Shown here: piece by piece, positions 23,901-25,599 of the stretch | How the letters are laid out: each line of letters begins with the position of its first letter | Numbering within the stretch: position 1 is the first letter of the stretch | Assembly (NCBI GenBank): GCA_016183575.1 | Contig: JACPEI010000023.1 | Span: 1-32,516 of the forward strand | DNA length: 32,516 nucleotides | Direction of reading: 5' to 3' | From: Nitrosomonadales bacterium | GTDB taxonomy: Bacteria > Pseudomonadota > Gammaproteobacteria > Burkholderiales > Gallionellaceae | Made by a program: the position numbers and the translations under genes | The notes under the pieces: generated by a model | What the model saw: only the letters and a program-made list of their open reading frames with translations | Told to the model about the DNA's origin: nothing | Database searches by the model: none

Positions 23901-24083
23901 TTTCCGCTGGCCATTTCCACCGGTGCGGGCGCCGAGAGCCGCCACGCCATCGGCACCGGCGTCATCGGCGGCATGGTCGCCGCCACCGTGTTTGCGATCT
24001 TCCTGGTGCCGGTGTTCTTCATGGCAGTGCGGCGCATCTTCCCGGGGCATGCGCGCGCGCAAGAGGAAAAACCGCATGAATAA
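20967..24083 (+). CDS. RND efflux pump inner-membrane permease (AcrB/MexB, HAE1 family)
   Basis: 1038 aa: [59 protein letters not shown]..., '[18 protein letters not shown]'. Confidence 0.95.
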   Translation: [1038 protein letters not shown]

Positions 24084-25599
24084 TTTCTTTCCAAAATCAA
24101 AAGTGGATATCGTAGGGTGCATTCCATGCACCCATGAAAATGGTGCATGGAATGCACCCTACATGGCTAAAAATAAATGGAATAAAACTCTGTGTGCTGT
24201 TGCCTTGGCCGCAACGTTGAGCGGCTGTTCGCTGACGCCCGAATACCAGCGCCCCGCCGCACCCATCGCCGCAGCCTGGCCGGATTTCGCCAAACCGGGC
24301 GGCGCGCGCCGGATCGCGGACACCGTCTGGCAACGCTATTACCCCGACCCGCGCCTGCAAGGGCTGATAAGCGCCGCGCTGGAAAACAACCGCGACCTGC
24401 GCATCGCCACCGCGCGCATTGCCGAGGCGCGCGCGCAATACGGCATCCAGCAGGCCGACCGGCTGCCGAATCTCAACGTCATCGCCGGGCGCAATGCCTC
24501 GCTGACGCCGGCGGGCGCATCGGCATTCACCGCCAATGCGATCCACTCGCAGCGCTACGATGTGGCCATCAGCCTGGTGTCATTCGAACTGGATTTCTGG
24601 GGGCGGGTCGCCAGCCTGAGCAAGGCCGCGAAGGCCAACTATCTCGCGACCGAAGCCGCACAGCGCGCCTTCCGGCTATCGCTGATCGCCGACTTGGCGA
24701 ATGCCTACTTGTCGTTGCAGGAGCTGCGCGAACGCGCACAGCTCGCCGCGGAAACCGCGAGGGCGCGCGCCGAAACCCGCGAATTAACAGCGCACCGCCG
24801 CGACCTCGGCGTGTCCAGCGACCTGGATTTCCTGCAGGCCGACGGCGCATATCAGGCCGCCGTCGCAGAGCGTGCGAGTCTCGAACGGCAACAGGCCGCC
24901 GCCGAGAACCTGCTCGACTTGCTGGTCGGCCAGCCGGTGGCGCAGATGAAAGACTTGCCCGCCGGACGCAGCCTCGCCGAACAGGACATCGCCCCCGACC
25001 TGCTCGCCGGACTGCCCGCCGAGGTGTTGTTGCAGCGCCCCGACGTGCTGGCCGCCGAGCACAAGCTGATCGCCGCGAATGCGAACATCGGCGCGGCGCG
25101 CGCGGCTTTCCTGCCGCGCATCATGCTGACCGGCAGCGTCGGCACCGCCAGCCGCACGCTCGCCGGGCTGTTCGATGCGGGCAGCGGCGCATGGAGTTTC
25201 CAGCCCGCGCTCACGCAACCGCTGTTCGATGCCGGGCGCAATTCTGCCAACCTGGATGTCGCCGAGGCGCGCAAGGTCATCGCGGTCGCCGAATACGAGA
25301 AAACCATCCAGCAGGCGTTCCGCGAAGTGGCGGACCTGCTGAATGCGCGCGAGAAACTCGCCGAGCAACTCGCCGCGCAGCAGGCCAACGCCGACGCGCA
25401 AAACCGGCGCCTGAAGCTGGTGGAAGCGCGCTACGGGGTGGGCATCGCCAACCATCTGGAAGTGCTGGATGCGCAACGCGAATCGTTCGCCGCACAACAG
25501 GGCGCGTTGCAGGTGCGGCGCACCCAGCTGTCGGCCGCCGCGCAGCTTTACAAGGCGCTTGCCGGGCAAGACAGCGCGGCGAATGAGGCCGGCGAATGA
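24076..25599 (+). CDS. RND efflux outer-membrane lipoprotein (NodT/OprM family)
   Basis: Lipobox 'LAATLSGCSLTPEYQRPAAPIAAAWPDF...'; OMF repeats. ATG 24076 overlaps the pump stop and has AGGA spaced 8 nt upstream; alternative ATG at 24163. Confidence 0.9.
   Translation: MNNFFPKSKVDIVGCIPCTHENGAWNAPYMAKNKWNKTLCAVALAATLSGCSLTPEYQRPAAPIAAAWPDFAKPGGARRIADTVWQRYYPDPRLQGLISAALENNRDLRIATARIAEARAQYGIQQADRLPNLNVIAGRNASLTPAGASAFTANAIHSQRYDVAISLVSFELDFWGRVASLSKAAKANYLATEAAQRAFRLSLIADLANAYLSLQELRERAQLAAETARARAETRELTAHRRDLGVSSDLDFLQADGAYQAAVAERASLERQQAAAENLLDLLVGQPVAQMKDLPAGRSLAEQDIAPDLLAGLPAEVLLQRPDVLAAEHKLIAANANIGAARAAFLPRIMLTGSVGTASRTLAGLFDAGSGAWSFQPALTQPLFDAGRNSANLDVAEARKVIAVAEYEKTIQQAFREVADLLNAREKLAEQLAAQQANADAQNRRLKLVEARYGVGIANHLEVLDAQRESFAAQQGALQVRRTQLSAAAQLYKALAGQDSAANEAGE
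24112..24162. repeat. 51-bp REPIN-like perfect inverted repeat, copy 2, in frame within the OMF N-terminus
   Basis: GTAGGGTGCATTCCATGCACC-CATGAAAAT-GGTGCATGGAATGCACCCTAC; arms identical to copy 1 at 18096. Confidence 0.93.

Follow-up and report, generated by a model that had tools for sequence, protein, structure and literature searches.

The window analysed here is a stretch of 32,516 nucleotides, contig C46 of a draft genome (1.55 Mb, 79% complete) whose relatives are Gallionella and Ferrigenium genomes. It carries an efflux operon with a membrane-fusion lipoprotein (19709..20836, + strand; HlyD/CusB domains), an RND pump (20967..24083, +; ACR_tran), an outer-membrane efflux lipoprotein, here OMF (24076..25599, +; Pfam OEP, 5e-49), and a TetR-type regulator, in that order. 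The ATG that probably serves as the functional OMF start (24076-24078) has AGAGGA upstream and overlaps the pump stop TAA at 24081-24083 (ATGAATAA), much as a sequence-only reading of this DNA had described, and both its position and its frame are conserved across 46/46 clade orthologues. From this start, the predicted signal peptide (24076..24225, +) spans 50 codons ahead of the lipobox cysteine (24226..24228, +; LSGC), compared with 15-19 codons in orthologues lacking an insert. Elsewhere in the operon, the linker between the membrane-fusion and pump genes (20837-20966) is about 130 nt long and contains another imperfect palindrome (GGAACGCGGACG/CGTCCGCGCTCC); this linker normally measures about 12 nt and reaches 133-297 nt in 4 relatives.

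Between the OMF start codon and the lipobox, in frame, lies a 51-bp palindromic core (24112..24162, +) composed of two inverted GTAG-type REPs. REP 1 (24112..24132, +) reads GTAG followed by GGTGCAT-TCC-ATGCACC, and REP 2 occupies 24142..24162 on the - strand. The two 21-nt arms are 100% complementary around a 9-nt loop, the core codons (VGCIPCTHENGAWNAPY) include no stop, and the RNA fold of the core region scores z = -6.9; the perfect in-frame inverted repeat reported from the letters alone is thus confirmed, as is its second copy. The latter (18096..18177, -; non-coding) consists of a core at 18096-18146 with identical 21-nt arms plus one recognisable end, and it forms one more base pair because its loop differs. 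An Rfam search of the window returned no match for the repeat itself. It placed a 6S RNA (+) at 17755-17946, about 150 nt ahead of the second copy, and a cobalamin riboswitch (-) at 16917-17117. A further long inverted repeat with 29-bp arms (AACCCCTCCTAACCTCCCC..) lies at 30435-30511.

The sequence-only reading had proposed a genome-wide search for the arm and had named confinement to these two loci as the outcome that would count against it. The arm instead extends far beyond them: the window holds 4 matches against 0.00 expected from shuffles, and the 1.55-Mb genome holds 46 at no more than 2 mismatches, with 0 for the reversed control. Most copies share the 21+9+21 layout with differing 9-nt loops. 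We found the arm in 10 of the 24 same-genus genomes searched, with 50 matches in one of them (G013), and in none of 16 searched genomes of other families. A multicopy GTAG-REP doublet therefore sits in the OMF signal-peptide region, as had been claimed.

Alignment of the copies, which we call family A, shows that the mobile unit is larger than the 51-bp core. Conserved flanks (left ATTCCATTTCTAAATCAAAAGTGAAATATC, right ATGGTTATTGCTGTTTTGAAAGAAAAATGGAAT) extend it to about 114 bp bounded by 9-bp terminal inverted repeats (TIRs), ATTCCATTT/AAATGGAAT, which are fully preserved at either end in L027, L028, and L262 and nearly so in others. Because the repeat includes its flanks on either side, most of the 12 codons preceding the core and the start of the MAKNKW segment behind it are also insert, so the repeat first recognised was the core of a longer element. 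At the OMF, about 101 nt of this element are left (24083..24183, +), with flanks that align with other copies, the right TIR AAATGGAAT at 24175-24183, and a decayed left TIR. The uninserted orthologues L083 and L036 read ATGAATAAGACTTTG in its place. Whereas uninserted relatives begin directly with MNKTL, the window encodes MN, then 34 residues, then NKTL, which places the insertion point at the pump stop codon itself. Orthologues without the repeat lack this N-terminal peptide; its presence in them was the other outcome that the sequence-only reading had named against itself. One orthologue, L080, has the same insertion, and its pump stop is TAG, not TAA.

The class membership of the element is mixed. 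Its GTAG end and stem-loop place it in the GTAG-REP superfamily, and its two inverted REPs around a variable spacer, together with its high copy number (46 arms in 1.55 Mb; 50 in G013), resemble a REPIN. However, the name REPIN, applied to it at first sight, implies a RAYT partner: at 21 Y1_Tnp (RAYT) loci in five carrier genomes, the source genome being only 79% complete, no confident family-A arm was found nearby, the only candidates being two 4-mismatch matches, both at L072. Some of the Y1_Tnp genes are flanked by other REPs, and two RAYT-like genes (G000:C65:32515-33285 and C10:12924-13600) have their own flanking GTAG-type repeats, unlike family A. As a short non-coding unit of about 114 bp with terminal inverted repeats, the element also resembles a MITE; no consistent target-site duplication was seen at the flanks of family-A copies. 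By its structure, then, we classify it as a GTAG-REP doublet that looks like a REPIN but has no RAYT partner found, carried within a TIR-bounded, MITE-like unit.

Comparison across orthologues, mostly from MAGs, reveals that the window is one case among many. The distance from the pump stop to the lipobox cysteine in the 46 clade orthologues is either 40-52 nt (25 orthologues) or 98-194 nt (21), with nothing between, and the 21 long junctions contain inserts of 11 different repeat types. Four types are GTAG-REP doublets (GTAGGGTGCATT.., GTAGGAGCGGGCC.., GTAGGTCGGGCTT.., and GTAGGGGCGCGATT..), one starts with the CGTC-like GTCATTCCCGCG, and the others comprise TCCGCAGATTACGC.., CACGAAGTGCACGAAG.., CCCCCTTTTGCAAAGGGGG.., CTCTCCCCC.., and two more; the palindromes of types F, G, and J are imperfect. 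Multicopy status was checked in carrier genomes for five of the 11 types: A (46 arms), E (54 arms in G019), and K (33 arms in G012), and, in 400-kb samples, B (12 matches) and D (5 matches). The OMF tree implies no fewer than 19 switches of repeat type and 13 switches between insert and no insert. Close sisters differ, with no insert in L097, type I in L093, and type B in L107; so do the near sisters L106 (none) and L104 (type D). Beyond the clade, an insert is present in 2 of 30 cases. We rejected a single common insertion inherited with decay, since the sequences are unrelated and the type has switched 19 or more times along the tree. By these comparisons, the pump-OMF junction of these iron-oxidising, Gallionella-type bacteria is an insertion hotspot for unrelated repeats.

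Despite this turnover, the OMF reading frame is kept throughout. Every one of the 46 clade orthologues has an upstream start (ATG in all but one, which has GTG) at -5, -1, or -11 relative to the pump stop and a frame open to the cysteine. We compared the three frames of 15 representative inserts: in 13 a single frame is open, namely the one that the OMF uses, and multiplying the chance probabilities of frame and openness gives about 2e-14. Where an insertion is shared, its internal indels come in multiples of 3, and pN (0.10; 0.17 for type E) is lower than pS (0.30; 0.37 for type E). Read in the OMF frame, the left end of most other family-A copies contains a TGA, whereas both OMF copies are open. 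That the inserts never break the frame suggests that the repeats become part of the protein and that this junction accepts them unusually readily. Eight inserts (L073, L087, L077, L079, L084, L090, L060, and L103) provide no start codon that could be used downstream of the repeat and ahead of the lipobox; together with the conserved upstream open frame, this makes it very probable that the repeats are translated into the signal-peptide n-region.

The sequence-only reading had left the choice between this and a start at ATG 24163 (24163..24165, +), which comes with the conserved right end of the mobile unit (CTAC followed by ATGG). On the window sequence alone, the downstream start is possible, and it would yield a perfect, short, textbook lipoprotein signal peptide (MAKNKWNKTLCAVALAATLSGC), with the repeat serving as an intercistronic leader; published opinion likewise holds many N-terminal REPs to be extragenic owing to downstream starts (PMC3733652). 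The orthologues disfavour it: each keeps the frame and its openness from the position of ATG 24076, eight have no alternative start, and L080, with the same insertion, retains the upstream frame. The region immediately upstream of 24163 moreover sits in a 21-bp stem. We thus regard an untranslated repeat as unlikely and translation through it as much likelier, although ATG 24163 is a possible second start that would allow dual or switched starts in the window.

We propose that 3'-end insertion of many repeat types into a translated, discarded, and frame-filtered n-region probably explains these observations. Small mobile palindromic repeats of many kinds would prefer sites just 3' of stop codons. 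As the stop codon of the pump and the start codon of the OMF overlap (ATGAxTAA), an insert behind that stop would fall in the n-region of the OMF lipoprotein signal peptide, which is expected to be translated and then removed with the signal peptide. Since the n-region is cut off, almost any insert should survive if it keeps the frame, brings no stop, and spares the Shine-Dalgarno sequence, start codon, and h-region/lipobox. For the window, this means that a roughly 114-bp unit built around a GTAG-REP doublet would have entered the pump stop codon and would be translated from ATG 24076, adding 34 residues to the n-region. The sequence comparison directly establishes the insertion, the multicopy repeat, the recurrence by 11 types, the kept and open frame, and the eight inserts without a downstream start. 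From these we infer that the insert is translated in the cell and cleaved off together with the signal peptide, that its effect is near neutral, and that the hotspot arises from 3'-end preference.

A preference for gene 3' ends has been published for GTAG/CGTC REPs (PMC3733652), and in our data a palindrome lies within 60 nt of the stop in 4.5-9.6% of genes, mostly within 30 nt. The hotspot is thus likely caused by elements that favour gene 3' ends where the pump 3' end coincides with the cleaved, tolerant n-region of the OMF. As a control, we took 152 co-directional junctions with overlapping genes from 1.2 Mb of three genomes; a palindrome is present in 2-3 of them, and at equal stem score the comparison is 3/152 against 11/46 OMF junctions (p = 8e-6). 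The clear case besides the OMF is a type-II-secretion-like pseudopilin leader. The n-region of the other lipoprotein of the operon has no insert in the window or in any of 21 relatives (0/21; p = 1e-4). Among the paralogous OMFs of this genus, which often overlap an upstream gene, all 28 with a readable start lack an insert (p = 7e-6); a few genomes that have no close orthologue (G004, G010, and G032) dominate this control. Since 3'-end preference and tolerance together predict inserts at other overlapping lipoprotein junctions and the paralogues are clean, our account misses something particular to the pump-OMF junction. In the pseudopilin just mentioned, which is GspH-like, the palindromic repeat sits in frame in the leader, directly after an ATGA overlap with the upstream gene (G000:C87:24808-24903, L202). 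Elsewhere in the genome, the signal peptide of a LolA-like protein also has a GTAG-REP doublet (GTAGGTGCGAATTTATTCGCAC) in its n-region, again in frame (G000:C101:30857-30911, L200).

The repeat could also act on expression, as the sequence-only reading had taken either start to imply. A hairpin lying +19 to +56 from the OMF AUG might slow or uncouple OMF translation, or protect the 3' end of the pump mRNA, and so set the OMF:pump ratio. Repeats of different origin do converge on one site, and most inserts fold strongly (-41 kcal/mol in the window, whose repeat region has the z of -6.9 given above; -11 to -93 in others), all from +19 or later. Several (G, J, and F), however, fold weakly, and more than half of the orthologues, near sisters included, have no insert. 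The window hairpin starts +37 from the A of the AUG, beyond the usual footprint of an initiating ribosome. The claim that either start implies tuning is not supported. We looked in the inserts for compensatory evolution of the hairpin and saw none: stems decay in L080, L079/L084, and L078 while the frame is kept. With stems decaying in shared insertions and inserts coming and going, tuning of the OMF is possible but not needed, and we consider it rather improbable as the explanation. A combined version, in which the junction is a selected docking site where mobile palindromes are captured as disposable translated n-region inserts whose hairpins tune the OMF:pump ratio, is doubtful; if true, it would provide fast-evolving regulation that leaves the mature proteins untouched. 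A single transposition system that recognises a specific target sequence where pump and OMF overlap (ATGAxTAA) would fit family A, which lies exactly at the pump stop in both the window and L080. Yet the eleven types are unrelated and their insertion points are scattered along the n-region (further in for L105, L077, and L108); because so many types were probably moved by different enzymes, we consider a shared target highly improbable.

Insertion into a tolerant, discarded n-region, the reading we prefer, has partial precedents. In-frame palindromic repeats translated within protein genes were described in Rickettsia as RPEs, or Rickettsia palindromic elements (Ogata et al. 2000; reviewed in PMC2229807). 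The OMF inserts resemble them as mobile palindromic repeats of roughly 100-150 bp that lie in frame inside a conserved protein gene and appear near neutral, and the comparative support for their translation is strong. RPEs, however, occupy many genes at different sites, whereas here many unrelated types occupy one site that would be lost with the signal peptide. GTAG/CGTC REPs and REPINs (PMC3733652, PMC8049555) share the GTAG end, stem-loop, inverted doublet, variable spacer, multicopy state, and position mostly 3' of genes, and different REPs have been reported at about the same recB site in two Xanthomonas species (PMC3733652, PMC8049555). The family-A core, in contrast, is nested in a TIR unit of about 114 bp inside a signal peptide, with no adjoining RAYT gene in five genomes. 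In the MITE-ORF fusions of Yersinia (YPAL/RU-2, YPO1552; PMC2229807), a mobile repeat likewise supplies part of a predicted signal peptide, but there a new protein was proposed at one locus, whereas here an old conserved gene has been struck repeatedly across a genus. A limited literature search found no direct report of REP or palindrome inserts in signal peptides. In-frame translated palindromes and MITE-built signal peptides are thus known, from Rickettsia and Yersinia, respectively, while recurrent capture of many repeat types by one signal peptide looks new.

Whether REPs at gene starts are coding or leader has been an open question (PMC3733652), and by comparison the OMF case is very probably coding. 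Signal-peptide n-regions may thus be a refuge for mobile repeats inside genes, and the 11 insert types in one gene form a natural series for asking how much lengthening of an n-region, and how much mRNA structure in the early codons, export can tolerate. For annotators, odd long N-termini ahead of a lipobox can be real. The repeat in the window also encodes a decoy lipobox, IVGC (24109-24120), which has no hydrophobic stretch ahead of it and could mislead lipoprotein predictors.
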